Of a stretch of 64,000 nt of DNA, positions 1 through 64,000 are shown piece after piece. Both the position numbers and the translations under genes were made by a program. Position 1 is the first letter of the stretch. Every line of letters starts with the position of its first letter. The notes beneath the pieces were generated by a model that was given only the letters and a program-made list of their open reading frames with translations, did no database searches and was not told the origin of the DNA. The DNA is from Loxodes magnus. Its lineage: Eukaryota; Ciliophora; Karyorelictea; Loxodida; Loxodidae. The stretch covers positions 248,001 through 312,000 of the forward strand of contig CAMPDV010000142.1 of the NCBI GenBank assembly GCA_946699065.1, written 5' to 3'.

Positions 1-12
1 TACAGGTACCTG
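1..12. repeat. 12-bp palindrome present once in nearly every unit
   Basis: acaggtacctgt (starting at base 2 of the first unit) equals its own reverse complement and encodes T-G-T-C. It contains the KpnI site GGTACC and recurs every 123 bp. I saw it altered in only a few units, for example near 31233, 45970 and 49171. Codon choice for T-G-T-C explains it without any special role. Confidence 0.8.
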
Positions 13-843
13 TCTTGACGTCCCATAGTCTCACCGTCTAATCATAACTTCCCGATACGATGAACTCTGAATCACTGGATATAGCCACAGCACATACATA
101 ATGTGTGTGACCACTCATGGTCTTACAGGTACCTGTCTTGACGTCCCATAGTCTCACCGTCTAATCTCTACTTCCCGATATGATGAAATCTGAATCACTG
201 GATATAGCCACAGCATATACCTAACCGTTGTGACCACTCATGGTCTTACAGGTACCTGTCTTGACGTCCCATAGTCTCACCGTCTAATCATAACCTCCCG
301 ATACGATGAACTCTGAATCACTGGATATAGCCACAGCATATACATTACTAGTGTGACCACTCATGGTCTTACAGGTACCTGTCTTGACGTCCCATAGTCT
401 CACCGTCTAATCATAACTTCCCGATACGATGAACTCTGAATCACTGGATATAGCCACAGCATATACATTACTAGTGTGACCACTCATGGTCTTACAGGTA
501 CCTGTCTTGACGTCCCATAGTCTCACCGTCTTATCTCAACTTCCCGATACGATGAACTCTGAATCACTGGATATAGCCACAGCATATACATAATTAGTGT
601 GACCACTCATGGTCTTACAGGTACCTGTCTTGACGTCCCATAGTCTCACCGTCTAATCATAACTTCCCGATGCGATGAACTCTGAATCACTGGATATAGC
701 CACAGCTAATACATAACTAGTGTGACCACTCATGGTCTTACAGGTACCTGTCCTGACGTCCCATAGTCTCACCGTCTAATCATAACTTCCCGATACGATG
801 AACTCTGAATCACTGGATATAGCCACAGCATATACCTAACCGT
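1..843. repeat. Block of ~7 units duplicated at 17831-18673
   Basis: Reading both regions unit by unit, the order of all variants matches through the 843 bases: the cacatac/gtgtgtg unit, the HNG-type unit, two attactag units, the cttatc/ctcaac unit, the gatgcg unit and the tcctgac unit. The copies part at base 844 (cgtt against cgta). The left edge of the first copy is cut by the window. Confidence 0.85.
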
Positions 844-3358
844 TGTGACCACTCATGGTCTTACAGGTACCTGTCTTGACGTCCCATAGTCTCACCGTCT
901 AATCTCTACTTCCCGATATGATGAAATCTGAATCACTGGATATAGCCACAGCATATACCTAACCGTTGTGACCACTCATAGTCTTACAGGTACCTGTCTT
1001 GACGTACCATAGTCTCACCGTCTAATCTCAACTTCCCGATACGATGAACTCTGAATCACTGGATATAGCCACAGCATATACATTACTAGTGTGACCACTC
1101 ATGGTCTTACAGGTACCTTTCTTGACGTCCCATAGTCTCACCGTCTAATCATAACTTCCCGATATGATGAAATCTGAATCACTGGATATAGCCACAGCAT
1201 ATACCTAACCGTTGTGACCACTCATGGTCTTACAGGTACCTGTCTTGACGTCCCATAGTCTCACCGTCTAATCATAACCTCCCGATACGATGAAATCTGA
1301 ATCACTGGATATAGCCACAGCATATACATAACTAGTGTGACCACTCATGGTCTTACAGGTACCTGTCTTGACGTCCCATAGTCTCACCGTCTAATCATAA
1401 CCTCCCGATACGATGAACTCTGAATCACTGGATATAGCCACAGCATATACCTAACCGTAGCGACCACTCATGGTCTTACAGGTACCTGTCTTGACGTCCC
1501 ATAGTCTCACCGTCTAATCTCTACTTCCCGATATGATGAAATCTGAATCACTGGATATAGCCACAGCATATACCTAACCGTTGTGACCACTCATGGTCTT
1601 ACAGGTACCTGTCTTGACGTCCCATAGTCTCACCGTCTAATCATAACCTCCCGATACGATGAACTCTGAATCACTGGATATAGCCACAGCATATACAGAA
1701 CTAGTGTGACCACTCATGGTCTTACAGGTACCTGTCTTGACATCCCATAGTCTCACCGTCTAATCTCTACTTCCCGATATGATGAAATCTGAATCACTGG
1801 ATATAGCCACAGCATATACCTAACCGTTGTGACCACTCATAGTCTTACAGGTACCTGTCTTGACGTCCCATAGTCTCACCGTCTAATCATAACCTCCCGA
1901 TACGATGAACTCTGAATCACTGGATATAGCCACAGCATATACCTAACCGTAGCGACCACTCATGGTCTTACAGGTACCTGTCTTGACGTCCCATAGTCTC
2001 ACCGTCTAATCATAACTTCCCGATACGATGAACTCTGAATCACTGGATATAGCCACAGCATATACCTAACCGTTGTGACCACTCATGGTCTTACAGGTAC
2101 CTGTCTTGACATCCCATAGTCTCACCGTCTAATCTTAACTTCCCGATACGATGAAATCTGAATCACTGGATATAGCCACAGCATATACATAATTAGTGTG
2201 ACCACTCATAGTCTTACAGGTACCTGTCTTGACGTCCCATAGTCTCACCGTCTAATCATAACTTCCCGATACGATGAACTCTGAATCACTGGATATAGCC
2301 ACAGCATATACCTAACCGTTGTGACCACTCATAGTCTTACAGGTACCTGTCTTGACGTCCCATAGTCTCACCGTCTAATCTCTACTTCCCGATATGATGA
2401 AATCTGAATCACTGGATATAGCCACAGCATATACATAATTAGTGTGACCACTCATAGTCTTACAGGTACCTGTCTTGACGTACCATAGTCTCACCGTCTA
2501 ATCATAACTTCCCGATACGATGAACTCTGAATCACTGGATATAGCCACAGCATATACCTAACCGTAGCGACCACTCATGGTCTTACAGGTACCTGTCTTG
2601 ACGTCCCATAGTCTCACCGTCTTATCTCAACTTCCCGATACGATGAACTCTGAATCACTGGATATAGCCACAGCATATACCTAACCGTTGTGACCACTCA
2701 TAGTCTTACAGGTACCTGTCTTGACGTCCCATAGTCTCACCGTCTTATCTCAACTTCCCGATACGATGAACTCTGAATCACTGGATATAGCCACAGCTAA
2801 TACATAACCGTAGCGACCACTCATGGTCTTACAGGTACCTGTCTTGACATCCCATAGTCTCACCGTCTAATCATAACTTCCCGATATGATGAAATCTGAA
2901 TCACTGGATATAGCCACAGCATATACCTAACCGTTGTGACCACTCATGGTCTTACAGGTACCTGTCTTGACGTCCCATAGTCTCACCGTCTAATCATAAC
3001 TTCCCGATACGATGAACTCTGAATCACTGGATATAGCCACAGCATATACCTAACCGTAGCGACCACTCATGGTCTTACAGGTACCTGTCTTGACGTCCCA
3101 TAGTCTCACCGTCTTATCTCAACTTCCCGATACGATGAACTCTGAATCACTGGATATAGCCACAGCATATACATTACTAGTGTGACCACTCATGGTCTTA
3201 CAGGTACCTGTCTTGACATCCCATAGTCTCACCGTCTAATCTTAACTTCCCGATACGATGAAATCTGAATAACTGGATATAGCCACAGCATATACATAAT
3301 TAGTGTGACCACTCATAGTCTTACAGGTACCTGTCTTGACGTACCATAGTCTCACCGT

Positions 3359-3601
3359 CTAATCTCTACTTCCCGATATGATGAAATCTGAATCACTGGA
3401 TATAGCCACAGCTAATACATAACTAGTGTGACCACTCATGGTCTTACAGGTACCTGTCTTGACGTCCCATAGTCTCACCGTCTTATCATAACTTCCCGAT
3501 ACGATGAACTCTGAATCACTGGATATAGCCACAGCATTTACATAACTAGTGTGACCACTCATGGTCTTACAGGTACCTGTCTTGACATCCCATAGTCTCA
3601 C
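3359..3601 (-). pseudogene. Stop-free two-unit WD40 fragment
   Basis: 80 codons are open, from the GTG of T-V-R-L-W-D to the TAG at codon 32 of the second unit. The first unit has the variable residues T-S-Y and N, then S-G-S-Y-D-K. The second has T-S-Y and L, D in place of E before F-I-I, and S-G-S-R-D before the stop. The apparent GTG start lies inside a beta strand, so it marks where the frame opens and is not a real initiation site. An almost identical fragment recurs at 33351-33593 and 38505-38747, differing by K to R in D-V-K-T-G. Confidence 0.4.
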
Positions 3602-6600
3602 CGTCTAATCTTAACTTCCCGATACGATGAACTCTGAATCACTGGATATAGCCACAGCATATACCTAACCGTTGTGACCACTCATGGTCTTACAGGTACC
3701 TGTCTTGACGTACCATAGTCTCACCGTCTAATCTCTACTTCCCGATATGATGAAATCTGAATCACTGGATATAGCCACAGCTAATACATAACTAGTGTGA
3801 CCACTCATGGTCTTACAGGTACCTGTCTTGACGTCCCATAGTCTCACCGTCTAATCATAACTTCCCGATACGATGAACTCTGAATCACTGGATATAGCCA
3901 CAGCATTTACATAACTAGTGTGACCACTCATGGTCTTACAGGTACCTGTCTTGACATCCCATAGTCTCACCGTCTTATCTTAACTTCCCGATACGATGAA
4001 CTCTGAATCACTGGATATAGCCACAGCATATACCTAACCGTTGTGACCACTCATGGTCTTACAGGTACCTGTCTTGACGTCCCATAGTCTCACCGTCTAA
4101 TCTTAACTTCCCGATACGATGAACTCTGAATCACTGGATATAGCCACAGCATATACCTAACCGTTGTGACCACTCATGGTCTTACAGGTACCTGTCTTGA
4201 CGTCCCATAGTCTCACCGTCTAATCATAACTTCCCGATACGATGAACTCTGAATCACTGGATATAGCCACAGCTAATACATAACCGTAGCGACCACTCAT
4301 GGTCTTACAGGTACCTGTCTTGACGTCCCATAGTCTCACCGTCTAATCATAACTTCCCGATGCATGAACTCTGAATCACTGGATATAGCCACAGATGATA
4401 CATAACTAGTGTGACCACTCATGGTCTTACAGGTACCTGTCTTGACGTCCCATAGTCTCACCGTCTAATCATAACTTCCCGATATGATGAAATCTGAATC
4501 ACTGGATATAGCCACAGCATATACCTAACCGTTGTGACCACTCATGGTCTTACAGGTACCTGTCTTGACGTACCATAGTCTCACCGTCTAATCTCTACTT
4601 CCCGATATGATGAACTCTGAATCACTGGATATAGCCACAGCACATACATAATGTGTGTGACCACTCATGGTCTTACAGGTACCTGTCTTGACGTCCCATA
4701 GTCTCACCGTCTAATCATAACTTCCCGATACGATGAACTCTGAATCACTGGATATAGCCACAGCATTTACATAACTAGTGTGACCACTCATGGTCTTACA
4801 GGTACCTGTCTTGACGTCCCATAGTCTCACCGTCTAATCATAACTTCCCGATACGATGAACTCTGAATCACTGGATATAGCCACAGCATATACCTAACCG
4901 TAGCGACCACTCATGGTCTTACAGGTACCTGTCTTGACATCCCATAGTCTCACCGTATGATCTCTACTTCCCGATACGATGAACTCTGAATCACTGGATA
5001 TAGCCACAGCATATACCTAACCGTAGCGACCACTCATGGTCTTACAGGTACCTGTCTTGACGTCCCATAGTCTCACCGTCTAATCTCTACTTCCCGATAC
5101 GATGAACTCTGAATCACTGGATATAGCCACAGCATATACATTACTAGTGTGACCACTCATGGTCTTACAGGTACCTGTCTTGACATCCCATAGTCTCACC
5201 GTCTAATCTTAACTTCCCGATGCGATGAACTCTGAATCACTGGATATAGCCACAGCATATACATAATTAGTGTGACCACTCATGGTCTTACAGGTACCTG
5301 TCTTGACGTCCCATAGTCTCACCGTCTAATCATAACTTCCCGATGCGATGAACTCTGAATCACTGGATATAGCCACAGCATATACATAATGTGTGTGACC
5401 ACTCATAGTCTTACAGGTACCTGTCTTGACGTCCCATAGTCTCACCGTCTAATCATAACTTCCCGATACGATGAACTCTGAATCACTGGATATAGCCACA
5501 GCATATACCTAACCGTAGCGACCACTCATGGTCTTACAGGTACCTGTCTTGACGTCCCATAGTCTCACCGTCTAATCATAACTTCCCGATGCATGAACTC
5601 TGAATCACTGGATATAGCCACAGCATATACATAATTAGTGTGACCACTCATGGTCTTACAGGTACCTGTCTTGACGTCCCATAGTCTCACCGTCTAATCA
5701 TAACCTCCCGATACGATGAACTCTGAATCACTGGATATAGCCACAGCATATACATTACTAGTGTGACCACTCATGGTCTTACAGGTACCTGTCCTGACGT
5801 CCCATAGTCTCACCGTCTAATCTCTACTTCCCGATATGATGAAATCTGAATCACTGGATATAGCCACAGCATATACCTAACCGTTGTGACCACTCATGGT
5901 CTTACAGGTACCTGTCTTGACGTCCCATAGTCTCACCGTCTAATCATAACCTCCCGATACGATGAAATCTGAATCACTGGATATAGCCACAGCATATACC
6001 TAACCGTTGTGACCACTCATGGTCTTACAGGTACCTGTCTTGACGTCCCATAGTCTCACCGTCTAATCTCTACTTCCCGATATGATGAAATCTGAATCAC
6101 TGGATATAGCCACAGCATATACCTAACCGTTGTGACCACTCATAGTCTTACAGGTACCTGTCTTGACGTCCCATAGTCTCACCGTCTAATCATAACCTCC
6201 CGATACGATGAACTCTGAATCACTGGATATAGCCACAGCATATACCTAACCGTAGCGACCACTCATGGTCTTACAGGTACCTGTCTTGACGTCCCATAGT
6301 CTCACCGTCTAATCATAACTTCCCGATGCATGAACTCTGAATCACTGGATATAGCCACAGCATATACATAATTAGTGTGACCACTCATGGTCTTACAGGT
6401 ACCTGTCTTGACGTCCCATAGTCTCACCGTCTAATCATAACCTCCCGATACGATGAACTCTGAATCACTGGATATAGCCACAGCATATACATTACTAGTG
6501 TGACCACTCATGGTCTTACAGGTACCTGTCCTGACGTCCCATAGTCTCACCGTCTAATCTCTACTTCCCGATATGATGAAATCTGAATCACTGGATATAG

Positions 6601-6736
6601 CCACAGCATATACCTAACCGTTGTGACCACTCATGGTCTTACAGGTACCTGTCTTGACGTCCCATAGTCTCACCGTCTAATCATAACCTCCCGATACGAT
6701 GAAATCTGAATCACTGGAAATAGCCACAGCATATAC

Positions 6737-6919
6737 CTAACCGTTGTGACCACTCATGGTCTTACAGGTACCTGTCTTGACGTCCCATAGTCTCACCGTA
6801 TGATCTCTACTTCCCGATACGATGAACTCTGAATCACTGGATATAGGCACAGCATATACATAATTAGTGTGACCACTCATAGTCTTACAGGTACCTGTCT
6901 TGACGTCCCATAGTCTCAC
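6737..6919 (-). pseudogene. Stop-free WD40 fragment ending at the codon-12 TAG
   Basis: 60 codons are open. The first unit reads G-H-T-N-Y-V-Y-A-V with Pro replacing Ala just after it (A-V-P-I-S-S), then S-G-S-R-D-H-T-V, one of the few units with CAT (His) at codon 32. The next unit starts G-H-N-G and ends at TAG in codon 12. This fragment shows that codons 30 and 32 can both be sense in one unit (AGA and CAT). Confidence 0.4.
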
Positions 6920-7365
6920 CGTCTAATCATAACCTCCCGATACGATGAACTCTGAATCACTGGATATAGCCACAGCATATACATTACTAGTGTGACCACT
7001 CATAGTCTTACAGGTACCTGTCTTGACGTCCCATAGTCTCACCGTCTAATCATAACTTCCCGATATGATGAAATCTGAATCACTGGATATAGCCACAGCA
7101 TATACCTAACCGTTGTGACCACTCATGGTCTTACAGGTACCTGTCTTGACGTCCCATAGTCTCACCGTCTAATCTCTACTTCCCGATATGATGAAATCTG
7201 AATCACTGGATATAGCCACAGCATATACCTAACCGTTGTGACCACTCATGGTCTTACAGGTACCTGTCTTGACGTCCCATAGTCTCACCGTCTTATCTCA
7301 ACTTCCCGATACGATGAACTCTGAATCACTGGATATAGCCACAGCATATACATTACTAGTGTGAC

Positions 7366-8021
7366 CACTCATGGTCTTACAGGTACCTGTCTTGACGTCC
7401 CATAGTCTCACCGTCTAATCATAACTTCCCGATGCGATGAACTCTGAATCACTGGATATAGCCACAGCTAATACATAACTAGTGTGACCACTCATGGTCT
7501 TACAGGTACCTGTCTTGACGTCCCATAGTCTCACCGTCTAATCATAACCTCCCGATACGATGAACTCTGAATCACTGGATATAGCCACAGCATATACATT
7601 ACTAGTGTGACCACTCATGGTCTTACAGGTACCTGTCTTGACGTCCCATAGTCTCACCGTATTATCTCCACTTCCCGATACGATGAACTCTGAATCACTG
7701 GATATAGCCACAGCATTTACATAACTAGTGTGACCACTCATGGTCTTACAGGTACCTGTCTTGACGTCCCATAGTCTCACCGTCTAATCATAACTTCCCG
7801 ATGCGATGAACTCTGAATCACTGGATATAGCCACAGCTAATACATAACTAGTGTGACCACTCATGGTCTTACAGGTACCTGTCTTGACGTCCCATAGTCT
7901 CACCGTCTAATCATAACTTCCCGATACGATGAACTCTGAATCACTGGATATAGCCACAGCATATACCTAACCGTTGTGACCACTCATGGTCTTACAGGTA
8001 CCTGTCTTGACGTCCCATAGT
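7366..8021. repeat. Block of ~5 units duplicated at 13269-13924
   Basis: The block includes the rare gtattatctccac unit (Asn at codon 32, Gly at codon 30) and a gcatttac unit, with the same order of neighbours in both copies at an offset of 5903. They part where the second copy reads tagttt for tagtct. Confidence 0.75.
7538..7780 (-). pseudogene. Stop-free two-unit WD40 fragment, first of an identical pair
   Basis: 80 codons are open. The first unit carries T-S-Y, N at position 14 and S-G-S-G-D-N-T-V (GGA and AAT at codons 30 and 32). The second carries T-S-N, Y and S-G-G-Y-D before the TAG at codon 32. The translation is identical to 13441-13683, which lies in a duplicated block with an offset of 5903 bases. 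Confidence 0.4.
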
Positions 8022-8061
8022 CTCACCGTCTAATCTCTACTTCCCGATATGATGAAATCTG

Positions 8062-9017
8062 AATCACTGGATATAGCCACAGCATATACATAATTAGTGT
8101 GACCACTCATAGTCTTACAGGTACCTGTCTTGACGTCCCATAGTCTCACCGTCTTATCTCAACTTCCCGATACGATGAACTCTGAATCACTGGATATAGC
8201 CACAGCATATACATTACTAGTGTGACCACTCATGGTCTTACAGGTACCTGTCTTGACATCCCATAGTCTCACCGTCTAATCTTAACTTCCCGATACGATG
8301 AACTCTGAATCACTGGATATAGCCACAGCATATACCTAACCGTTGTGACCACTCATGGTCTTACAGGTACCTGTCTTGACGTACCATAGTCTCACCGTCT
8401 AATCTCTACTTCCCGATATGATGAAATCTGAATCACTGGATATAGCCACAGCATATACCTAACCGTTGTGACCACTCATGGTCTTACAGGTACCTGTCTT
8501 GACGTCCCATAGTCTCACCGTCTAATCATAACCTCCCGATACGATGAACTCTGAATCACTGGATATAGCCACAGCATATACCTAACCGTAGCGACCACCC
8601 ATGGTCTTACAGGTACCTGTCTTGACGTCCCATAGTCTCACCGTCTAATCATAACCTCCCGATACGATGAACTCTGAATCACTGGATATAGCCACAGCAT
8701 ATACATTACTAGTGTGACCACTCATGGTCTTACAGGTACCTGTCTTGACATCCCATAGTCTCACCGTCTAATCATCACTTCCCGATGCAATGAACTCTGA
8801 ATCACTGGATATAGCCACAGCATATACATAATTAGTGTGACCACTCATGGTCTTACAGGTACCTGTCTTGACGTCCCATAGTCTCACCGTCTAATCTTAA
8901 CTTCCCGATACGATGAACTCTGAATCACTGGATATAGCCACAGCATATACATAACTAGTGTGACCACTCATGGTCTTACAGGTACCTGTCCTGACGTCCC
9001 ATAGTCTCACCGTCTAA
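8062..9017. repeat. Triplicated ~8-unit block, copy 1
   Basis: The block carries two rare markers: gaccaccc (Ser to Gly before GH) at about 8593 and gatgcaatgaac at about 8785. The same series recurs 1599 bases (13 units) and 2583 bases (21 units) downstream. The match with copy 3 extends further, to about 9206. Confidence 0.8.
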
Positions 9018-9660
9018 TCATAACTTCCCGATACGATGAACTCTGAATCACTGGATATAGCCACAGCATATACCTAACCGTAGCGACCACTCATGGTCTT
9101 ACAGGTACCTGTCTTGACGTCCCATAGTCTCACCGTCTAATCATCACTTCCCGATACGATGAACTCTGAATCACTGGATATAGCCACAGCATATACCTAA
9201 CCGTAGCGACCACTCATGGTCTTACAGGTACCTGTCTTGACATCCCATAGTCTCACCGTCTAATCATCACTTCCCGATGCAATGAACTCTGAATCACTGG
9301 ATATAGCCACAGCATATACATAATTAGTGTGACCACTCATGGTCTTACAGGTACCTGTCTTGACGTCCCATAGTCTCACCGTCTAATCTTAACTTCCCGA
9401 TACGATGAACTCTGAATCACTGGATATAGCCACAGCATATACATAACTAGTGTGACCACTCATGGTCTTACAGGTACCTGTCCTGACGTCCCATAGTCTC
9501 ACCGTCTAATCATAACTTCCCGATACGATGAACTCTGAATCACTGGATATAGCCACAGCATATACCTAACCGTAGCGACCACTCATGGTCTTACAGGTAC
9601 CTGTCTTGACATCCCATAGTCTCACCGTCTAATCATCACTTCCCGATGCAATGAACTCTG

Positions 9661-10616
9661 AATCACTGGATATAGCCACAGCATATACATAATTAGTGTG
9701 ACCACTCATAGTCTTACAGGTACCTGTCTTGACGTCCCATAGTCTCACCGTCTTATCTCAACTTCCCGATACGATGAACTCTGAATCACTGGATATAGCC
9801 ACAGCATATACATTACTAGTGTGACCACTCATGGTCTTACAGGTACCTGTCTTGACATCCCATAGTCTCACCGTCTAATCTTAACTTCCCGATACGATGA
9901 ACTCTGAATCACTGGATATAGCCACAGCATATACCTAACCGTTGTGACCACTCATGGTCTTACAGGTACCTGTCTTGACGTACCATAGTCTCACCGTCTA
10001 ATCTCTACTTCCCGATATGATGAAATCTGAATCACTGGATATAGCCACAGCATATACCTAACCGTTGTGACCACTCATGGTCTTACAGGTACCTGTCTTG
10101 ACGTCCCATAGTCTCACCGTCTAATCATAACCTCCCGATACGATGAACTCTGAATCACTGGATATAGCCACAGCATATACCTAACCGTAGCGACCACCCA
10201 TGGTCTTACAGGTACCTGTCTTGACGTCCCATAGTCTCACCGTCTAATCATAACCTCCCGATACGATGAACTCTGAATCACTGGATATAGCCACAGCATA
10301 TACATTACTAGTGTGACCACTCATGGTCTTACAGGTACCTGTCTTGACATCCCATAGTCTCACCGTCTAATCATCACTTCCCGATGCAATGAACTCTGAA
10401 TCACTGGATATAGCCACAGCATATACATAATTAGTGTGACCACTCATGGTCTTACAGGTACCTGTCTTGACGTCCCATAGTCTCACCGTCTAATCTTAAC
10501 TTCCCGATACGATGAACTCTGAATCACTGGATATAGCCACAGCATATACATAACTAGTGTGACCACTCATGGTCTTACAGGTACCTGTCCTGACGTCCCA
10601 TAGTCTCACCGTCTTA
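9661..10616. repeat. Triplicated ~8-unit block, copy 2
   Basis: Same variant order as 8062-9017, including the gaccaccc marker at about 10192 and the gatgcaatg marker at about 10383. It ends in a cttatc/ctcaac unit where copies 1 and 3 have ctaatc/ataac. Confidence 0.8.
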
Positions 10617-10644
10617 TCTCAACTTCCCGATACGATGAACTCTG

Positions 10645-11600
10645 AATCACTGGATATAGCCACAGCATATACATAACTAGTGTGACCACTCATGGTCTTA
10701 CAGGTACCTGTCTTGACGTCCCATAGTCTCACCGTCTTATCTCAACTTCCCGATACGATGAACTCTGAATCACTGGATATAGCCACAGCATATACATTAC
10801 TAGTGTGACCACTCATGGTCTTACAGGTACCTGTCTTGACATCCCATAGTCTCACCGTCTAATCTTAACTTCCCGATACGATGAACTCTGAATCACTGGA
10901 TATAGCCACAGCATATACCTAACCGTTGTGACCACTCATGGTCTTACAGGTACCTGTCTTGACGTACCATAGTCTCACCGTCTAATCTCTACTTCCCGAT
11001 ATGATGAAATCTGAATCACTGGATATAGCCACAGCATATACCTAACCGTTGTGACCACTCATGGTCTTACAGGTACCTGTCTTGACGTCCCATAGTCTCA
11101 CCGTCTAATCATAACCTCCCGATACGATGAACTCTGAATCACTGGATATAGCCACAGCATATACCTAACCGTAGCGACCACCCATGGTCTTACAGGTACC
11201 TGTCTTGACGTCCCATAGTCTCACCGTCTAATCATAACCTCCCGATACGATGAACTCTGAATCACTGGATATAGCCACAGCATATACATTACTAGTGTGA
11301 CCACTCATGGTCTTACAGGTACCTGTCTTGACATCCCATAGTCTCACCGTCTAATCATCACTTCCCGATGCAATGAACTCTGAATCACTGGATATAGCCA
11401 CAGCATATACATAATTAGTGTGACCACTCATGGTCTTACAGGTACCTGTCTTGACGTCCCATAGTCTCACCGTCTAATCTTAACTTCCCGATACGATGAA
11501 CTCTGAATCACTGGATATAGCCACAGCATATACATAACTAGTGTGACCACTCATGGTCTTACAGGTACCTGTCCTGACGTCCCATAGTCTCACCGTCTAA
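10645..11600. repeat. Triplicated ~8-unit block, copy 3
   Basis: It lies 984 bases (8 units) from copy 2. The match with copy 1 continues to about 11789, so copies 1 and 3 share more than either shares with copy 2. Related units with both markers recur near 27.65-28.3 kb. Confidence 0.7.
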
Positions 11601-13268
11601 TCATAACTTCCCGATACGATGAACTCTGAATCACTGGATATAGCCACAGCATATACCTAACCGTAGCGACCACTCATGGTCTTACAGGTACCTGTCTTGA
11701 CGTCCCATAGTCTCACCGTCTAATCATCACTTCCCGATACGATGAACTCTGAATCACTGGATATAGCCACAGCATATACCTAACCGTTGTGACCACTCAT
11801 GGTCTTACAGGTACCTGTCTTGACGTCCCATAGTCTCACCGTATTATCTCCACTTCCCGATACGATGAACTCTGAATCACTGGATATAGCCACAGCATAT
11901 ACCTAACCGTTGTGACCACTCATGGTCTTACAGGTACCTGTCTTGACGTCCCATAGTCTCACCGTCTAATCATAACTTCCCGATACGATGAACTCTGAAT
12001 CACTGGATATAGCCACAGCTAATACATAACCGTAGCGACCACTCATGGTCTTACAGGTACCTGTCTTGACGTCCCATAGTCTCACCGTCTAATCATCACT
12101 TCCCGATGCATGAACTCTGAATCACTGGATATAGCCACAGATGATACATAACTAGTGTGACCACTCATGGTCTTACAGGTACCTGTCTTGACGTCCCATA
12201 GTCTCACCGTCTAATCATAACTTCCCGATATGATGAAATCTGAATCACTGGATATAGCCACAGCATATACCTAACCGTTGTGACCACTCATGGTCTTACA
12301 GGTACCTGTCTTGACGTCCCATAGTCTCACCGTCTAATCATAACTTCCCGATACGATGAACTCTGAATCACTGGATATAGCCACAGCACATACATAATGT
12401 GTGTGACCACTCATGGTCTTACAGGTACCTGTCTTGACGTCCCATAGTCTCACCGTCTAATCATAACTTCCCGATACGATGAACTCTGAATCACTGGATA
12501 TAGCCACAGCATATACCTAACCGTTGTGACCACTCATAGTCTTACAGGTACCTGTCTTGACGTCCCATAGTCTCACCGTCTTATCTCAACTTCCCGATAC
12601 GATGAACTCTGAATCACTGGATATAGCCACAGCATATACCTAACCGTAGCGACCACTCATGGTCTTACAGGTACCTGTCTTGACGTCCCATAGTCTCACC
12701 GTATGATCTCTACTTCCCGATACGATGAACTCTGAATCACTGGATATAGCCACAGCATATACCTAACCGTAGCGAACACTCATGGTCTTACAGGTACCTG
12801 TCTTGACGTCCCATATTCTCACCGTCTAATCATAACTTCCCGATACGATGAACTCTGAATCACTGGATATAGCCACAGCATATACATTACTAGTGTGACC
12901 ACTCATGGTCTTACAGGTACCTGTCTTGACGTCCCATATTCTCACCGTCTAATCTCTACTTCCCGATACGATGAACTCTGAATCACTGGATATAGCCACA
13001 GCATATACATTACTAGTGTGACCACTCATGGTCTTACAGGTACCTGTCTTGACATCCCATAGTCTCACCGTCTAATCTTAACTTCCCGATGCGATGAACT
13101 CTGAATCACTGGATATAGCCACAGCTAATACATAACTAGTGTGACCACTCATGGTCTTACAGGTACCTGTCCTGACGTCCCATAGTCTCACCGTATGATC
13201 TCTACTTCCCGATACGATGAACTCTGAATCACTGGATATAGCCACAGCATATACCTAACCGTAGCGAC

Positions 13269-21141: not shown

Positions 21142-21148
21142 AGTCTTA

Positions 21149-43680: not shown

Positions 43681-43699
43681 TCCCGATACGATGAACTCT

Positions 43700-51536: not shown

Positions 51537-51779
51537 CTAATCATAACTTCCCGATGCGATGAACTCTGAATCACTGGATATAGCCACAGCTAATACATAA
51601 CTAGTTTGACCACTCATGGTCTTACAGGTACCTGTCTTGACGTCCCATAGTCTCACCGTCTTATCATAACTTCCCGATACGATGAACTCTGAATCACTGG
51701 ATATAGCAACAGCAGATACATAACTAGTGTGACCACTCATGGTCTTACAGGTACCTGTCTTGACGTCCCATAGTCTCAC
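51537..51779 (-). pseudogene. Stop-free two-unit WD40 fragment with GH changed to GQ
   Basis: 80 codons are open. The first unit carries T-S-Y, S at position 14 and S-G-S-Y-D-K. The second has Gln in place of the structural His of GH (CAA for CAC), L at position 14, F-I-A and S-G-S-Y-D before the TAG. The Gln is one of the very few Gln codons of the CAR type in the window. Confidence 0.4.
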
Positions 51780-52703
51780 CGTCTAATCTCTACTTCCCGA
51801 TATGATGAAATCTGAATCACTGGATATAGCCACAGCATATACCTAACCGTTGTGACCACTCATGGTCTTACAGGTACCTGTCTTGACGTCCCATAGTCTC
51901 ACCGTCTAATCTCTACTTCCCGATATGATGAAATCTGAATCACTGGATATAGCCACAGCATATACCTAACCGTTGTGACCACTCATGGTCTTACAGGTAC
52001 CTGTCTTGACGTCCCATAGTCTCACCGTCTTATCTCAACTTCCCGATACGATGAACTCTGAATCACTGGATATAGCCACAGCATATACCTAACCGTTGTG
52101 ACCACTCATGGTCTTACAGGTACCTGTCTTGACGTCCCATAGTCTCACCGTCTAATCATAACCTCCCGATACGATGAACTCTGAATCACTGGATATAGCC
52201 ACAGCATATACATTACTAGTGTGACCACTCATGGTCTTACAGGTACCTGTCCTGACGTCCCATAGTCTCACCGTCTAATCATAACTTCCCGATATGATGA
52301 AATCTGAATCACTGGATATAGCCACAGCATATACATTATTAGTGTGACCACTCATGGTCTTACAGGTACCTGTCTTGACGTCCCATAGTCTCACCGTCTA
52401 ATCTCTACTTCCCGATATGATGAAATCTGAATCACTGGATATAGCCACAGCTAATACATAACTAGTGTGACCACTCATGGTCTTACAGGTACCTGTCTTG
52501 ACGTACCATAGTCTCACCGTCTAATCATAACTTCCCGATATGATGAAATCTGAATCACTGGATATAGCCACAGCATATACCTAACCGTTGTGACCACTCA
52601 TGGTCTTACAGGTACCTGTCTTGACGTCCCATAGTCTCACCGTCTAATCATAACTTCCCGATATGATGAAATCTGAATCACTGGATATAGCCACAGCATA
52701 TAC

Positions 52704-52886
52704 CTAACCGTTGTGACCACTCATGGTCTTACAGGTACCTGTCTTGACGTCCCATAGTCTCACCGTCTTATCATCTACTTCCCGATACGATGAACTCTGA
52801 ATCACTGGATATAGCAACAGCATATACCTAACCGTGTGACCACTCATAGTCTTACAGGTACCTGTCTTGACGTCCCATAGTCTCAC
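52704..52886 (-). pseudogene. Stop-free WD40 fragment with a compensated frameshift
   Basis: 60 codons are open. One base is missing before the T-S-Y segment and one extra base lies near codon 30. The unit keeps its 123-bp length but about 25 residues between G-H-T-V and V-D-D-K-T-V are read out of the WD40 frame. The following unit begins G-H-N-G and ends at the codon-12 TAG. A shift that returns to frame leaves length intact but removes the WD40 core, so this unit would not fold as a blade. Confidence 0.4.
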
Positions 52887-53019
52887 CGTCTTATCTTAAC
52901 TTCCCGATACGATGAACTCTGAATCACTGGATATAGCCACAGCATATACCTAACCGTTGTGACCACTCATGGTCTTACAGGTACCTGTCTTGACGTCCCA
53001 TAGTCTCACCGTCTAATCA

Positions 53020-56000
53020 TAACCTCCCGATACGATGAACTCTGAATCACTGGATATAGCCACAGCATATACCTAACCGTTGTGACCACTCATGGTCTTA
53101 CAGGTACCTGTCTTGACGTCCCATAGTCTCACCGTCTAATCTCTACTTCCCGATATGATGAACTCTGAATCACTGGATATAGCCACAGCACATACCTAAC
53201 CGTTGTGACCACTCATGGTCTTACAGGTACCTGTCCTGACGTCCCATAGTCTCACCGTCTAATCATAACTTCCCGATACGATGAACTCTGAATCACTGGA
53301 TATAGCCACAGCATATACCTAACCGTTGTGACCACTCATGGTCTTACAGGTACCTGTCTTGACGTCCCATAGTCTCACCGTCTAATCATAACTTCCCGAT
53401 ATGATGAAATCTGAATCACTGGATATAGCCACAGCATATACCTAACCGTTGTGACCACTCATGGTCTTACAGGTACCTGTCTTGACGTACCATAGTCTCA
53501 CCGTCTAATCTCTACTTCCCGATACGATGAACTCTGAATCACTGGATATAGCCACAGCATATACCTAACCGTTGTGACCACTCATGGTCTTACAGGTACC
53601 TGTCTTGACGTACCATAGTCTCACCGTCTAATCATAACTTCCCGATATGATGAAATCTGAATCACTGGATATAGCCACAGCATATACCTAACCGTTGTGA
53701 CCACTCATGGTCTTACAGGTACCTGTCTTGACGTCCCATAGTCTCACCGTCTTATCTTAACTTCCCGATACGATGAACTCTGAATCACTGGATATAGCCA
53801 CAGCATATACCTAACCGTTGTGACCACTCATGGTCTTACAGGTACCTGTCTTGACGTCCCATAGTCTCACCGTCTAATCATAACCTCCCGATACGATGAA
53901 CTCTGAATCACTGGATATAGCCACAGCATATACCTAACCGTTGTGACCACTCATGGTCTTACAGGTACCTGTCTTGACGTCCCATAGTCTCACCGTCTAA
54001 TCTCTACTTCCCGATATGATGAAATCTGAATCACTGGATATAGCCACAGCACATACCTAACCGTTGTGACCACTCATGGTCTTACAGGTACCTGTCCTGA
54101 CGTCCCATAGTCTCACCGTCTAATCATAACTTCCCGATACGATGAACTCTGAATCACTGGATATAGCCACAGCATATACCTAACCGTTGTGACCACTCAT
54201 GGTCTTACAGGTACCTGTCTTGACGTCCCATAGTCTCACCGTCTTATCTCAACTTCCCGATACGATGAACTCTGAATCACTGGATATAGCCACAGCATAT
54301 ACATAATTAGTGTGACCACTCATAGTCTTACAGGTACCTGTCTTGACGTCCCATAGTCTCACCGTCTTATCTCAACTTCCCGATGCGATGAACTCTGAAT
54401 CACTGGATATAGCCACAGCATATACCTAACCGTTGTGACCACTCATAGTCTTACAGGTACCTGTCTTGACATCCAATAGTCTCACCGTCTAATCATAACT
54501 TCCCGATATGATGAAATCTGAATCACTGGATATAGCCACAGCATATACATAATTAGTGTGACCACTCATAGTCTTACAGGTACCTGTCTTGACGTCCCAT
54601 AGTCTCACCGTCTAATCTCTACTTCCCGATATGATGAAATCTGAATCACTGGATATAGCCACAGCACATACCTAACCGTTGTGACCACTCATGGTCTTAC
54701 AGGTACCTGTCCTGACGTCCCATAGTCTCACCGTCTAATCATAACTTCCCGATACGATGAACTCTGAATCACTGGATATAGCCACAGCATATACCTAACC
54801 GTTGTGACCACTCATAGTCTTACAGGTACCTGTCTTGACGTCCCATAGTCTCACCGTCTAATCATAACTTCCCGATATGATGAAATCTGAATCACTGGAT
54901 ATAGCCACAGCATATACCTAACCGTTGTGACCACTCATGGTCTTACAGGTACCTGTCTTGACGTCCCATAGTCTCACCGTCTAATCTCTACTTCCCGATA
55001 TGATGAAATCTGAATCACTGGATATAGCCACAGCATATACCTAACCGTTGTGACCACTCATAGTCTTACAGGTACCTGTCTTGACGTCCCATAGTCTCAC
55101 CGTCTTATCTCAACTTCCCGATACGATGAACTCTGAATCACTGGATATAGCCACAGCATATACATTACTAGTGTGACCACTCATGGTCTTACAGGTACCT
55201 GTCTTGACGTCCCATAGTCTCACCGTCTAATCATAACTTCCCGATGCGATGAACTCTGAATCACTGGATATAGCCACAGCTAATACATAACTAGTGTGAC
55301 CACTCATGGTCTTACAGGTACCTGTCCTGACGTCCCATAGTCTCACCGTCTAATCTCTACTTCCCGATATGATGAAATCTGAATCACTGGATATAGCCAC
55401 AACATATACCTAACCGTTGTGACCACTCATGGTCTTACAGGTACCTGTCTTGACGTCCCATAGTCTCACCGTCTAATCATAACCTCCCGATACGATGAAC
55501 TCTGAATCACTGGATATAGCCACAGCATATACATTACTAGTGTGACCACTCATGGTCTTACAGGTACCTGTCTTGACATCCCATAGTCTCACCGTCTAAT
55601 CTTAACTTCCCGATACGATGAACTCTGAATCACTTGATATAGCCACAGCATATACCTAACCGTTGTGACCACTCATGGTCTTACAGGTACCTGTCTTGAC
55701 GTCCCATAGTCTCACCGTCTAATCATAACTTCCCGATGCGATGAACTCTGAATCACTGGATATAGCCACAGCTAATACATAACTAGTGTGACCACTCATG
55801 GTCTTACAGGTACCTGTCTTGACGTACCATAGTCTCACCGTCTAATCATAACTTCCCGATACGATGAACTCTGAATCACTGGATATAGCCACAGCATATA
55901 CCTAACCGTTGTGACCACTCATGGTCTTACAGGTACCTGTCTTGACATCCCATAGTCTCACCGTCTAATCTTAACTTCCCGATATGATGAAATCTGAATC

Positions 56001-56025
56001 ACTGGATATAGCCACAGCATATACA
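53020..56025. repeat. ~24-unit block duplicated at 56.7-59.8 kb
   Basis: Shared rare markers are acatccaatag (54469 and 58146) and acaacatat (55399 and 59199). The offset is 3677 in the left part and 3800 in the right part, so one unit was gained in the second copy or lost in the first. A unit series at 52.3-52.7 kb also recurs at 56.0-56.4 kb. Confidence 0.75.
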
Positions 56026-56296
56026 TTATTAGTGTGACCACTCATGGTCTTACAGGTACCTGTCTTGACGTCCCATAGTCTCACCGTCTAATCTCTACTT
56101 CCCGATATGATGAAATCTGAATCACTGGATATAGCCACAGCTAATACATAACTAGTGTGACCACTCATGGTCTTACAGGTACCTGTCTTGACGTACCATA
56201 GTCTCACCGTCTAATCATAACTTCCCGATATGATGAAATCTGAATCACTGGATATAGCCACAGCATATACCTAACCGTTGTGACCACTCATGGTCT

Positions 56297-56409
56297 TACA
56301 GGTACCTGTCTTGACGTCCCATAGTCTCACCGTCTAATCATAACTTCCCGAGATGATGAAATCTGAATCACTGGATATAGCCACAGACCGTTGTGACCAC
56401 TCATGGTCT
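56297..56409 (-). other. 113-bp unit with a 10-base loss around codons 11-15
   Basis: The text reads ccacagaccgttg where neighbours read ccacagcatatacctaaccg. The loss removes the codon-12 TAG and most of the V-Y-A segment and shifts the frame. The same unit has gagatg in place of gatatg. Confidence 0.75.
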
Positions 56410-56696
56410 TACAGGTACCTGTCTTGACGTCCCATAGTCTCACCGTCTAATCTCTACTTCCCGATATGATGAAATCTGAATCACTGGATATAGCCACAGC
56501 ATATACCTAACCGTTGTGACCACTCATAGTCTTACAGGTACCTGTCTTGACGTCCCATAGTCTCACCGTCTAATCTTAACTTCCCGATACGATGAACTCT
56601 GAATCACTGGATATAGCCACAGCATATACCTAACCGTTGTGACCACTCATGGTCTTACAGGTACCTGTCTTGACGTCCCATAGTCTCACCGTCTAA

Positions 56697-59600: not shown

Positions 59601-59825
59601 GTCTTACAGGTACCTGTCTTGACGTACCATAGTCTCACCGTCTAATCATAACTTCCCGATACGATGAACTCTGAATCACTGGATATAGCCACAGCATATA
59701 CCTAACCGTTGTGACCACTCATGGTCTTACAGGTACCTGTCTTGACATCCCATAGTCTCACCGTCTAATCTTAACTTCCCGATATGATGAAATCTGAATC
59801 ACTGGATATAGCCACAGCATATACA
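56697..59825. repeat. Second copy of the 53.0-56.0 kb block
   Basis: Same order of markers, with one extra unit near 58.6 kb and a three-base in-frame loss near 56698. The two copies abut through a short run of further duplicated units. Confidence 0.75.
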
Positions 59826-60092
59826 TAATTAGTGTGACCACTCATAGTCTTACAGGTACCTGTCTTGACGTCCCATAGTCTCACCGTCTTATCTCAACTT
59901 CCCGATGCGATGAACTCTGAATCACTGGATATAGCCACAGCATATACCTAACCGTTGTGACCACTCATAGTCTTACAGGTACCTGTCTTGACATCCAATA
60001 GTCTCACCGTCTAATCTCTACTTCCCGATATGATGAAATCTGAATCACTGGATATAGCCACAGCATATACATAATTAGTGTGACCACTCATA

Positions 60093-61296
60093 GTCTTACA
60101 GGTACCTGTCCTGACGTCCCATAGTCTCACCGTCTAATCATAACTTCCCGATACGATGAACTCTGAATCACTGGATATAGCCACAGCATATACCTAACCG
60201 TTGTGACCACTCATGGTCTTACAGGTACCTGTCTTGACGTCCCATAGTCTCACCGTATAATCATAACCTCCCGATACGATGAACTCTGAATCACTGGATA
60301 TAGCCACAGCATATACCTAACCGTTGTGACCACTCATGGTCTTACAGGTACCTGTCTTGACGTCCCATAGTCTCACCGTCTAATCATAACTTCCCGATAC
60401 GATGAACTCTGAATCACTGGATATAGCCACAGCATATACATAATTAGTGTGACCACTCATAGTCTTACAGGTACCTGTCTTGACGTCCCATAGTCTCACC
60501 GTCTAATCATAACTTCCCATGCGATGAACTCTGAATCACTGGATATAGCCACAGCTAATACATAACTAGTGTGACCACTCATAGTCTTACAGGTACCTGT
60601 CTTGACGTCCCATAGTCTCACCGTCTAATCATAACTTCCCGATATGATGAAATCTGAATCACTGGATATAGCCACAGCATATACCTAACCGTTGTGACCA
60701 CTCATGGTCTTACAGGTACCTGTCTTGACATCCCATAGTCTCACCGTCTAATCATAACCTCCCGATACGATGAAATCTGAATCACTGGATATAGCCACAG
60801 CATATACCTAACCGTAGCGACCACTCATGGTCTTACAGGTACCTGTCTTGACGTCCCATAGTCTCACCGTCTAATCTTAACTTCCCGATACGATGAACTC
60901 TGAATCACTGGATATAGCCAAGCATATACCTAACCGTTGTGACCACTCATGGTCTTACAGGTACCTGTCTTGACGTCCCATAGTCTCACCGTCTAATCTC
61001 TACTTCCCGATACGATGAACTCTGAATCACTGGATATAGCCACAGCATATACATTACTAGTGTGACCCCTCATGGTCTTACAGGTACCTGTCTTGACATC
61101 CCATAGTCTCACCGTCTAATCTTAACTTCCCGATACGATGAACTCTGAATCACTGGATATAGCCACAGCATATACCTAACCGTTGTGACCACTCATGGTC
61201 TTACAGGTACCTGTCTTGACGTCCCATAGTCTCACCGTCTTATCTCAACTTCCCGATACGATGAACTCTGAATCACTGGATATAGCCACAGCATAT
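60093..61296. repeat. ~10-unit block duplicated at 62797-64000
   Basis: The offset is 2704 (22 units less two bases). Three rare events recur in step: cttcccatgcg (60514 and 63218), gccaagc (60917 and 63621) and gacccctc (61065 and 63769). The second copy is cut by the window end, so the true block is longer. Confidence 0.85.
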
Positions 61297-61730
61297 ACCT
61301 AACCGTTGTGACCACTCATGGTCTTACAGGTACCTGTCTTGACGTCCCATAGTCTCACCGTCTAATCATAACCTCCCGATACGATGAACTCTGAATCACT
61401 GGATATAGCCACAGCATATACATTACTAGTGTGACCACTCATGGTCTTACAGGTACCTGTCTTGACGTCCCATAGTCTCACCGTCTAATCTCTACTTCCC
61501 GATATGATGAAATCTGAATCACTGGATATAGCCACAGCATATACCTAACCGTTGTGACCACTCATAGTCTTACAGGTACCTGTCTTGACGTCCCATAGTC
61601 TCACCGTCTTATCTCAACTTCCCGATACGATGAACTCTGAATCACTGGATATAGCCACAGCATATACATTACTAGTGTGACCACTCATGGTCTTACAGGT
61701 ACCTGTCTTGACGTCCCATAGTCTCACCGT

Positions 61731-61973
61731 CTAATCATAACTTCCCGATGCGATGAACTCTGAATCACTGGATATAGCCACAGCTAATACATAACTAGTG
61801 TGACCACTCATGGTCTTACAGGTACCTGTCCTGACGTCCCATAGTCTCACCGTATTATCTCCACTTCTTGATACGATGAACTCTGAATCACTGGATATAG
61901 CCACAGCATATACATTACTAGTGTGACCACTCATGGTCTTACAGGTACCTGTCTTGACGTACCATAGTCTCAC
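61731..61973 (-). pseudogene. Stop-free two-unit WD40 fragment with several core changes
   Basis: 80 codons are open. W-Y-V replaces W-D-V (the Asp to Tyr form seen in many units), then T-S-N/Y, and V-S-R-S-G-D-N with Arg in place of the conserved Gly. The second unit has D-V-R-T-G, T-S-Y/L and I-A-S-G-S-Y-D before the TAG at codon 32. Codons 30 and 32 of the first unit are GGA and AAT, as in the pair at 7538 and 13441. Confidence 0.4.
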
Positions 61974-62196
61974 CGTCTAATCTTAACCTCCCGATACGAT
62001 GAACTCTGAATCACTGGATATAGCCACAGCATATACATAATTAGTGTGACCACTCATAGTCTTACAGGTACCTGTCTTGACGTCCCATAGTCTCACCGTC
62101 TAATCATAACCTCCCGATACGATGAACTCTGAATCACTGGATATAGCCACAGCATATACCTAACCGTTGTGACCACTCATGGTCTTACAGGTACCT

Positions 62197-62700
62197 GTCT
62201 AGACGTCCCATAGTCTCACCGTCTAATCATAACCTCCCGATACGATGAACTCTGAATCACTGGATATAGCCACAGCATATACATTACTAGTGTGACCACT
62301 CATGGTCTTACAGGTACCTGTCTAGACGTCCCATAGTCTCACCGTCTTATCTCTACTTCCCGATACGATGAACTCTGAATCACTGGATATAGCCACAGAT
62401 CTTACAGAACTAGTGTGACCACTCATGGTCTTACAGGTACCTGTCTTGACGTCCCATAGTCTCACCGTCTAATCTCTACTTCCCGATACGATGAACTCTG
62501 AATCACTGGATATAGCCACAGCATATACCTAACCGTTGTGACCACTCATGGTCTTACAGGTACCTGTCTTGACGTCCCATAGTCTCACCGTATAATCATA
62601 ACCTCCCGATACGATGAACTCTGAATCACTGGATATAGCCACAGCATATACATTACTAGTGTGACCACTCATGGTCTTACAGGTACCTGTCTAGACGTCC
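62197..62700 (-). other. Local cluster of K-codon TAG units
   Basis: Three units between 62.19 and 62.70 kb read tgtctagacg, giving TAG for AAG in D-V-K-T-G. Their closeness shows local spread of one mutation. Gln or Glu at this place is common in WD40 repeats, so the change is also compatible with a recoded UAG. Confidence 0.75.
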
Positions 62701-62796
62701 CATAGTCTCACCGTCTAATCTCTACTTCCCGATACGATGAACTCTGAATCACTGGATATAGCCACAGCACATACCTAACCGTTGTGACCACTCATG

Positions 62797-64000
62797 GTCT
62801 TACAGGTACCTGTCCTGACGTCCCATAGTCTCACCGTCTAATCATAACTTCCCGATACGATGAACTCTGAATCACTGGATATAGCCACAGCATATACCTA
62901 ACCGTTGTGACCACTCATGGTCTTACAGGTACCTGTCTTGACGTCCCATAGTCTCACCGTATAATCATAACCTCCCGATACGATGAACTCTGAATCACTG
63001 GATATAGCCACAGCATATACCTAACCGTTGTGACCACTCATGGTCTTACAGGTACCTGTCTTGACGTCCCATAGTCTCACCGTCTAATCATAACTTCCCG
63101 ATACGATGAACTCTGAATCACTGGATATAGCCACAGCATATACATAATTAGTGTGACCACTCATAGTCTTACAGGTACCTGTCTTGACGTCCCATAGTCT
63201 CACCGTCTAATCATAACTTCCCATGCGATGAACTCTGAATCACTGGATATAGCCACAGCTAATACATAACTAGTGTGACCACTCATAGTCTTACAGGTAC
63301 CTGTCTTGACGTCCCATAGTCTCACCGTCTAATCATAACTTCCCGATATGATGAAATCTGAATCACTGGATATAGCCACAGCATATACCTAACCGTTGTG
63401 ACCACTCATGGTCTTACAGGTACCTGTCTTGACATCCCATAGTCTCACCGTCTAATCATAACCTCCCGATACGATGAAATCTGAATCACTGGATATAGCC
63501 ACAGCATATACCTAACCGTAGCGACCACTCATGGTCTTACAGGTACCTGTCTTGACGTCCCATAGTCTCACCGTCTAATCTTAACTTCCCGATACGATGA
63601 ACTCTGAATCACTGGATATAGCCAAGCATATACCTAACCGTTGTGACCACTCATGGTCTTACAGGTACCTGTCTTGACGTCCCATAGTCTCACCGTCTAA
63701 TCTCTACTTCCCGATACGATGAACTCTGAATCACTGGATATAGCCACAGCATATACATTACTAGTGTGACCCCTCATGGTCTTACAGGTACCTGTCTTGA
63801 CATCCCATAGTCTCACCGTCTAATCTTAACTTCCCGATACGATGAACTCTGAATCACTGGATATAGCCACAGCATATACCTAACCGTTGTGACCACTCAT
63901 GGTCTTACAGGTACCTGTCTTGACGTCCCATAGTCTCACCGTCTTATCTCAACTTCCCGATACGATGAACTCTGAATCACTGGATATAGCCACAGCATAT
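62797..64000. repeat. Second copy of the 60093-61296 block, cut by the window end
   Basis: I saw no difference from the first copy over 1204 bases. Both carry two 122-bp units, so the frameshifts spread by block duplication and are not independent errors. Confidence 0.85.

Follow-up and report, generated by a model that had tools for sequence, protein, structure and literature searches.

What is a stretch of ciliate DNA that consists from end to end of a WD40-coding unit and carries apparent stop codons in nearly every copy of it? This question is raised by the window analysed here, the whole 64,000-base stretch of Loxodes magnus DNA at C142:248,001-312,000. The entire window is a single tandem array (TRF: period 123, 520.8 copies, 93% matches), and the array on this contig extends over ~481 kb:

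Positions 1 to 64000, minus strand (the coding sense): interior of the array of 123-bp (41-codon) WD40 blades, head to tail.
C142, ~11,891 to 492,799: the full array, within a contig of 581,164 bp, sampled along its length.
Positions 63820 to 63942, minus strand: an example unit, codons 1 to 41 (ACG GTG AGA CTA TGG ... GAT TAG), with TAG, TAA and TAG as codons 21, 39 and 41.

The in-frame stops were counted in the 488 minus-strand units of exactly 123 bp, the other 32 of the 520 spacings being left out. TAA, TAG and TGA occur 751 times, 745 of them in codons 20, 21, 39 and 41, and under the standard code just 12 of the 488 units are free of stops. By codon, the counts in these units are:

Codon 41: 422 stops.
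Codon 21: 231 stops.
Codon 39: 91 stops (51 TAA, 3 TAG, 37 TGA).
Codon 8, the K of DVKTG: 4 stops.
Codons 20, 30 and 31: 1 stop each.

A preliminary description of this DNA had confined the stops to the variable codons of the WD40 unit, with TAG in its codons 12 and 32, all three stops in its codon 30 and an occasional stop in the K codon; its codons 32, 12 and 30 are codons 41, 21 and 39 here, and the full count bears it out on each of these points. It had also claimed that the conserved codons stay sense. This holds for TGG (codon 5, 484/488), TGT (codon 12, 488/488) and TCG (codon 36, 485/488), at none of which a stop is found, but not entirely for TCA (codon 31), which is kept in 483/488 units and is once replaced by TAA; GAG (codon 32) is never a stop, but it varies (360/488, with GAT, 126, as the main alternative). 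The near absence of Gln codons was likewise correctly perceived, there being one CAA and two CAG in all 488 units.

Stops in such DNA are liable to be misread as decay if the code of the host is unknown. In the host assembly, several in-frame TAA and TAG are present in each of the 29 CCT/TCP1 matches, seven of which have one TGA too, and in all three matches to the eRF1_1 domain; the standard code is therefore rejected. One of these three (L011) resembles Pelota by eye. The 20 CCT matches that were read contain 345 UAR, 148 CAR and 2 TGA among 9,845 codons; the two TGA are not at evidently conserved Trp positions and have no bearing on the reading of UGA as Trp. In CCT-zeta, a single gene compared by eye with its best PDB homologue, 8 of the 19 UAR sites fall opposite Gln and none opposite Glu, and a Glu reading is thus rejected. 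In blade 6, the codon for the WD40 Trp is TGA in 25 of 26 members of the gene family described below, the remaining one being unreadable. The motifs of eRF1, a further check that had been proposed, are altered: both copies (L012/L013) have RAQNIKS and FLCENTF, the standard motifs being TASNIKS and YLCDNKF. Of two suppressor-tRNA patterns, the first gave 0 matches and the second a single one (L123), in which neither ARAGORN (bacterial setting) nor Rfam detected a tRNA; ARAGORN found 0 genes in L123 and 11 other loci. A tRNA family search yielded 63 scored matches out of 42,786 candidates, and since 57 of the 63 have an identical score of 74 bits, these are probably a tRNA-like repeat.

In this host, UAR thus stands for Gln, and UGA is employed as a Trp codon, as had been supposed for the unit, and the "stops" of the array are consequently sense codons; they look confined because the hypervariable codons of the blade are the sites of Gln (TAG/TAA) and Trp (TGA). 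The code itself is not new. The karyorelict nuclear code (NCBI table 27: UAR as Gln, UGA as Trp or stop) is already known for L. magnus (PMC11441545), and the use of UAR and UGA inside genes matches it here with no difference found. The reassignment anticipated in the preliminary description therefore stands, but the precedents that it named, Condylostoma and Blastocrithidia, are not the nearest ones. A pseudogene satellite under the standard code, with its stops gathered at unconstrained codons, would account both for their position in the most variable codons and for an array that looks unconstrained; it is refuted by the full-length family genes and the housekeeping genes of the assembly, which carry the same codons, and we give it practically no credence.

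Code 27 leaves the frame open, and the array itself could be coding, for one or several giant WD40 proteins. One segment was modelled:

Positions 62322 to 63182, minus strand: seven consecutive in-frame units, 287 aa under code 27, predicted to form a propeller of 28 strands.

The fold predicted for these seven units is of high confidence (pLDDT 92.5, pTM 0.90, from an alignment with 8 sequences of the window). Matches of the model in Foldseek include PAFAH1B1, ODA16, the designed 7-bladed WRAP-T, PkwA, the highly repetitive propeller 2ymu and WDR5, and a typed three-unit consensus matches PF00400 at 3.5e-31; on these grounds the unit qualifies as a WD40 repeat, with a predicted propeller fold. 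In-frame stretches of up to 50 units also speak for a giant product. Against it, the WD40 frame switches 31 times over the 521 units of the window, so that even under the reassigned code the array holds no single long protein, as the preliminary description had recognised; its figure of about 30 units out of length agrees with the 32 irregular spacings among 520, 28 of them 122 bp long and the rest 120, 113, 113 and 119. In the window and other stretches of C142, an identical 1-nt deletion is present in 51 of 60 units of 122 bp, which means that a broken unit has been multiplied. Outside the variable codons, the array has 73 nonsynonymous (N) and 22 synonymous (S) distinct variants, a neutral ratio, 3.31:1 being expected without selection. 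The residues H18, E32, V35 and S38, which were chosen after seeing the table, are nearly fixed in the blades of genes and are altered in 13, 22, 31 and 18% of 1,088 array units. At codons 24 and 30 it is the genes that are more variable, and the N:S of gene blades outside the variable codons (38:15) is not clearly below neutral (p 0.42). Finally, the family member at the 5' end of the array has two frame changes ahead of its WD40 part, the second of which could be a short intron. We consider a coding array very improbable; the frame shifts and the relaxed sites argue against its translation, and the array would be untranslated satellite DNA.

The array unit is one blade of a large RING-like/pentapeptide/WD40 gene family, a member of which lies on the same contig:

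C142:506-3106, minus strand: family gene in a single frame, 867 codons under code 27 (WD40 8e-70, pentapeptide 1.9e-10).

The family proteins have a zinc-finger/RING-like N-terminus, a Q-rich middle, pentapeptide repeats and mostly seven WD40 blades, about four of which are near-identical. The middle looks coiled-coil-like by eye. The RING assignment is weak: in the family gene, zf-RING_2 (0.019) and zf-RING_UBOX (0.021) fall below the cut-off (Pfam E 0.019-0.032), and two other zinc-finger models equal or slightly outscore RING. The domain matches for this gene do not include a B-box, and HET and NACHT are absent from the Pfam matches listed for it. From 3,363 first-look candidates for its N-terminal part (514 aa), 84 matches were scored; every one is full length, with an unbroken frame for 513-514 residues, and 73 have no UGA at all. 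Among the best-scoring genes, which were those read, 23 of 26 WD40 domains are open in one frame throughout. A marker of the family's 3' end occurs 433 times in the assembly; a family of several hundred genes is suggested. A NACHT-WD40 gene near the right end of the contig had been considered as the parent of the array and was dropped, the RING-like family having matched the array's own 5' end. Among the literature matches listed, no title dealt with a WD40 satellite or a RING-like/WD40 family in Loxodes, and the words "WD40" and "satellite" are absent from the main text of PMC11441545.

Most of the differences between blades of the family genes are concentrated in a small number of codons, and it is there that Gln (TAG/TAA) and Trp (TGA) are found. 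The four codons with the greatest amino-acid entropy across 77 gene blades are 39, 21, 23 and 41 (2.88, 2.60, 2.39 and 2.12 bits), and pN/pS at the variable codons is 1.7-1.9, alike in genes and array, a mild sign of diversifying selection.

How far does the satellite extend? A 27-mer from the blade has 489,117 sites in the assembly and its reversed-pattern control 0; if every site represents one 123-bp unit, the blade DNA amounts to ~60 Mb, or 8.5% of 705.7 Mb (705,730,643). Four of 20 spots on 20 contigs fell in it. The 5' end of the array, at C142:492.8 kb, joins the first blade of a family member. The array ends on C4 and C800 begin in the middle of a unit and have flanks that, by eye, were not recognised as a family gene, and the notion that every array starts in a family gene is rejected, as these two seem not to; a gene that "ran away" is therefore seen at one array end only. 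Could the size and number of the arrays be largely an artefact of assembly? The L. magnus MAC assembly has 706 Mbp and that of the MIC 848, a difference ascribed by the authors to misassembled low-complexity repeats, and the coverage is ~20-30x (PMC11441545). On the other hand, for all tested lags between 1 and 400 units the mean unit identity in the window stays at 0.917-0.926, and the exact repeats reach 1,926 bp at most, so that accurate long reads should separate the copies, and the satellite was met at four of the 20 spots. Assembly may affect array length; that it explains most of the arrays we find improbable. The absence of a lag effect also rejects a higher-order repeat structure at the lags tested: the order of units is mixed.

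The mixed order might be expected if the arrays were a donor reservoir, with array units renewing the blades of expressed genes through gene conversion or crossing-over and diversifying their binding faces in this way. The gene adjoining the array (L007/L076) has two of its three complete blades identical to array units, and one of its blades (GRYGQ by order) shows 0 differences from the array and at least 7 from the complete blades of 25 other sampled genes. These identical blades may equally be the seed of the array; in the other 25 genes just two blades (L093, L100) equal a C142 array unit, and each of the two also has an identical counterpart among the blades of another gene. Moreover, the array is degraded at H18, which would make it a poor donor. 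We regard such a reservoir as rather unlikely. In its boldest form, several hundred RING-like/WD40 receptors of Loxodes would rebuild their binding faces by recombination, drawing on a genomic stock of some half a million WD40 blades. This is a long shot of the same order; if true, it would give a unicellular eukaryote a cassette system for diversifying recognition.

We strongly favour another history, in which the window is a satellite of a family-gene blade and its "stops" are sense. The family genes would be a recognition repertoire, E3-ligase-like and similar to TRIM or HNWD, in which near-identical blades recombine; this instability would now and then lead to a runaway into long arrays. 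Untranslated, the arrays would gather frame shifts and neutral changes, exchange would shuffle their units, and they would move into further sites, a dispersal for which the explanation offers no account. The recognition function, like any role of arrays as blade donors, is what we infer. The blade satellite itself can be followed back to a family of genes whose hypervariable positions resemble those of HNWD. This brings together two topics that are usually treated apart, how a gene domain diversifies and how a satellite arises, and it allows one to ask whether an immune-like repertoire of receptors exists in a ciliate and whether arrays feed it. Of the 706 Mbp MAC assembly, 231 Mbp were classed as "low-complexity tandem repeats" (PMC11441545); the ~60 Mb of blade DNA equals in amount about one quarter of these.

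Several known systems resemble parts of this one. TRIM proteins, such as the finTRIMs of fish, form a large family with a RING, a B-box, a coiled coil and a variable B30.2 binding domain. The Loxodes family shares with them its size, a RING-like start, a coiled-coil-like middle (by eye) and a variable binding domain, but it has WD40 in place of B30.2, pentapeptide repeats, a weak RING and no reported B-box. For the comparison with HNWD, we take the codon register to be set by the GH dipeptide. The HNWD genes of Podospora anserina (het-d, het-e, het-r) encode NLRs with WD40 repeats of high internal conservation and positively selected codons 7, 9, 25 and 27 (PMC2873952); the Loxodes blades are likewise near-identical, and codons 21, 23, 39 and 41 have the same spacing. 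The chance that exactly these four come out as the most variable is 1e-5, and that of the same spacing in any register 4e-4. Of the seven HNWD positions 10, 11, 12, 14, 30, 32 and 39 (PMC12222747), five are highly variable in the gene blades and six in the array; codon 19, which corresponds to position 10, hardly varies in gene blades, and codon 7, which corresponds to position 39, is invariant in the window (488/488). The HNWD repeat has 42 aa and the Loxodes blade 41, HET-NACHT stands where Loxodes has zinc-finger/pentapeptide sequences, and the portions consulted of both papers contain no mention of arrays of thousands of units. With neither HET nor NACHT among its listed matches, the family protein may work like an HNWD receptor, but it is no HNWD. 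High internal repeat identity is also the mark of the Highly-Repetitive WD40 proteins. Of the 305 surveyed by Hu et al. (2017; PMC5587647), 50% come from bacteria and 36% from fungi, and the text of that survey nowhere contains "ciliate", "Tetrahymena" or "Paramecium". With satellite DNA, finally, the Loxodes arrays share their long head-to-tail arrangement, their many loci and their drift out of frame; they differ in being built from a protein blade, of which both the reading frame and the hypervariable codons can still be made out.

A single tandem array, repeating every 123 bp, runs across the whole window; its minus-strand unit of 41 residues is a WD40 repeat, and the window holds no standard-code open reading frame of 150 codons. 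The preliminary description had placed all three stop codons in the variable codons of this unit, and its map is correct: among 751 in-frame "stops" in 488 full-length units, 745 fall at codons 20, 21, 39 and 41. The array belongs with a family of genes in which WD40 blades follow a RING-like start, a Q-rich middle and pentapeptide repeats. The principal features are as follows (C142, contig CAMPDV010000142.1; C196, another contig of the assembly).

C142, limits about 11,891 and 492,799 (end stretches read), minus-strand coding sense: the array, with the window inside it at C142:248,001-312,000.
C142:506-3106: family gene some 9 kb to the left of the array, a single frame of 867 codons under code 27 (UAR as Gln, UGA as Trp or stop), its 3' limit provisional because UGA may be its stop.
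C196:18,213-21,581 and 53,113-56,481: two eRF1 genes (L012 and L013) whose stop-recognition motifs are altered, separated by about 35 kb.

The supposition that the host itself reads UAR (TAA or TAG) as Gln, with in-frame UAR in its housekeeping genes and changes in its eRF1, was borne out. All 29 CCT/TCP1 family matches carry both TAA and TAG in frame, and seven also have one TGA; the 20 that were read (9,845 codons) contain 345 UAR, 148 CAR (CAA or CAG) and 2 TGA. When one CCT-zeta was aligned with its best PDB homologue, 8 of its 19 UAR sites stood opposite Gln and none opposite Glu. Both eRF1 copies carry RAQNIKS and FLCENTF, the standard motifs being TASNIKS and YLCDNKF. In the family genes UGA is read as Trp, since 25 of 26 have TGA as the WD40 Trp codon of blade 6 (the other was unreadable). 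No cognate suppressor tRNA was demonstrated by pattern searches of the assembly, ARAGORN (bacterial setting) or Rfam. In the tRNA-family search, 57 of 63 scored matches had an identical score of 74 bits; some of these are evenly spaced (527 or about 1,752 bp), one lies at C142:515,200, and they are perhaps a tRNA-like repeat.

The gene at C142:506-3106 runs from a cysteine-rich RING-like start through a Q-rich middle and pentapeptide repeats (PF00805, 1.9e-10) to WD40 blades (PF00400, 8e-70); its RING match is weak (E 0.019), against 0.012 and 0.018 for two other zinc-finger models. A search with its N-terminal 514 residues gave 3,363 first-look candidates across the assembly, and all 84 that were scored hold one frame over 513-514 residues with 61-88% identity, the 88% match being the query's own locus. 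UAR is present in each of the 84, and one or two UGA in 11. The WD40 part keeps one frame in 23 of 26 genes read, a sample biased to intact genes by its choice from the better-scoring matches; short introns are a possible cause of the frame changes in L077, L081 and L095. By eye, most of the 26 have seven blades and L080 has nine. A 30-mer from the 3' end of these 26 genes, which each of them has once, is present 433 times in the assembly at up to 3 mismatches; some sites may belong to relatives or broken copies.

In 77 complete blades of these genes (3 spacings of other length left out), codons 39, 21, 23 and 41 have the highest amino-acid entropy, followed by 20 and 24, and the codons used include 33 TAG, 4 TAA and 19 TGA vs 2 CAA and 1 CAG. 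A predicted seven-blade structure places codons 19-21 in the loop preceding each blade's first strand, codon 23 close to the beginning of that strand, and codons 39 and 41 in the loop joining the second and third strands. In a WD40 propeller these loops share one face. Gln and Trp are confined to the variable loops, and the "stops" are therefore confined likewise; this confinement belongs to the family genes and not to the array alone. Blades of genes and array alike have TGG for the conserved WD40 Trp at codon 5, whereas TGA appears at the hypervariable codons, and Gln at the latter is far more often TAG than TAA.

On C142 the satellite fills 8 of 8 ten-kb stretches sampled from 50,001 to 410,000 and 19 of 20 200-base probes, the sole miss being at 497 kb, past the array end; from its limits the array spans about 481 kb and, if uninterrupted, would hold some 3,900 units. 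An exact 29-mer of the satellite occurs 180,972 times genome-wide, and a 27-mer (codons 9-17, up to 2 mismatches) at 489,117 sites (217,686 + 271,431), with 0 matches for the reversed pattern. Because the 27-mer scores about one match per unit (0.92-1.08 in 9 of 9 stretches tested), the satellite, with family genes counted in, amounts to about 60 Mb, which is 8.5% of the 705,730,643 bases assembled. GC stands at 27% in a pair of flanking 10-kb stretches; code and AT-richness agree with the Loxodes magnus description in the part of PMC11441545 consulted, which gives a MAC of 706 Mbp. A sample of 20 800-base spots, spread over 20 contigs without weighting for length, met the satellite at 4; the 20 spots also showed other AT-rich tandem or periodic repeats, in L041, L052 (100 bp), L044 and L046 (103 bp), and further ones in L038 (about 80), L042 (241), L043 (93) and L050 (372).

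At its 5' end (C142:492.8 kb) the array runs into the first blade of a family member whose pentapeptide, Q-rich and RING-like parts lie ahead of that blade, with two frame changes between parts, the first made by overlapping frames and the second a gap that a short intron would fit. The other end stops mid-unit against an A-rich run, beyond which lies a reverse-transcriptase-like stretch; the two may show where the array broke. Both are in L074/L007 (C142:about 2,600-11,890), where the reverse-transcriptase-like frame has, by eye, an AYADD motif. Array ends on contigs C4 and C800 likewise start mid-unit, and no family gene was recognised in the DNA adjoining them, so arrays were dispersed by a route that we did not trace. 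At C4:2,223,800-2,225,900, right before the mid-unit start on that contig, lies protein-kinase-like and then degraded WD40-like sequence (by eye).

The array is probably not translated. There are 31 frame changes per 521 units in the window. The same 1-nt deletion occurs in 51 of 60 units of 122 bp (from 1,187 spacings in the window and in further stretches), which means that a broken unit was multiplied. With codons 19-21, 23, 24, 39 and 41 set aside, distinct array variants (73 nonsynonymous, 22 synonymous) stand at the neutral ratio; gene blades (38 and 15) are also indistinguishable from neutral (p 0.42), which makes this comparison of gene and array weak. The site-by-site contrast is stronger evidence: H18, E32, V35 and S38 are altered in 3, 0, 0 and 1 of 77 gene blades vs 144, 237, 334 and 196 of the 1,088 units from the array (Fisher p from 0.012 to 3e-12; 0.017 to 1e-14 with 323 distinct units), values that are optimistic, the units being related and the sites picked after the table was seen. 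Genes and array both conserve D40 and W5; at codons 24 and 30 it is the genes that vary more.

Mean unit identity in the window is flat with distance (0.917-0.926 over the tested lags of 1 to 400), which is not the pattern of simple local unequal crossing-over. In the gene neighbouring the array, 2 of 3 complete blades match array units exactly, and one of these is 7 or more changes away from the other sampled gene blades; gene and array thus share a recent history, in either direction. In the likeliest reading, recombination among near-identical blades of a recognition gene would yield new binding faces and occasionally a runaway array, which would then drift as satellite DNA. From architecture and variability, the chances that the family genes have a recognition role appear about even; that arrays act as blade donors is improbable. 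A second receptor-like gene (L010, C142:about 505,500-509,500, minus strand), with apparent frame changes, joins HEAT (under cut-off) and NACHT (PF05729, 3.7e-06) to pentapeptide (6.7e-09) and AT-rich WD40 repeats; its architecture, here in a ciliate, is NLR-like.

The variable codons can be compared with those of HNWD, the fungal WD40 NLR genes. Among the seven HNWD positions given in the part of PMC12222747 consulted (10, 11, 12, 14, 30, 32, 39), five show high variability in gene blades (codons 20, 21, 23, 39, 41) and six do so in the array (those five and codon 19). At codon 19, 75 of the 77 gene blades carry T; the codon that answers to position 39 does not vary. The four most variable gene-blade codons share the spacing of the four positively selected HNWD codons, 7, 9, 25 and 27, named in the portion of PMC2873952 consulted.
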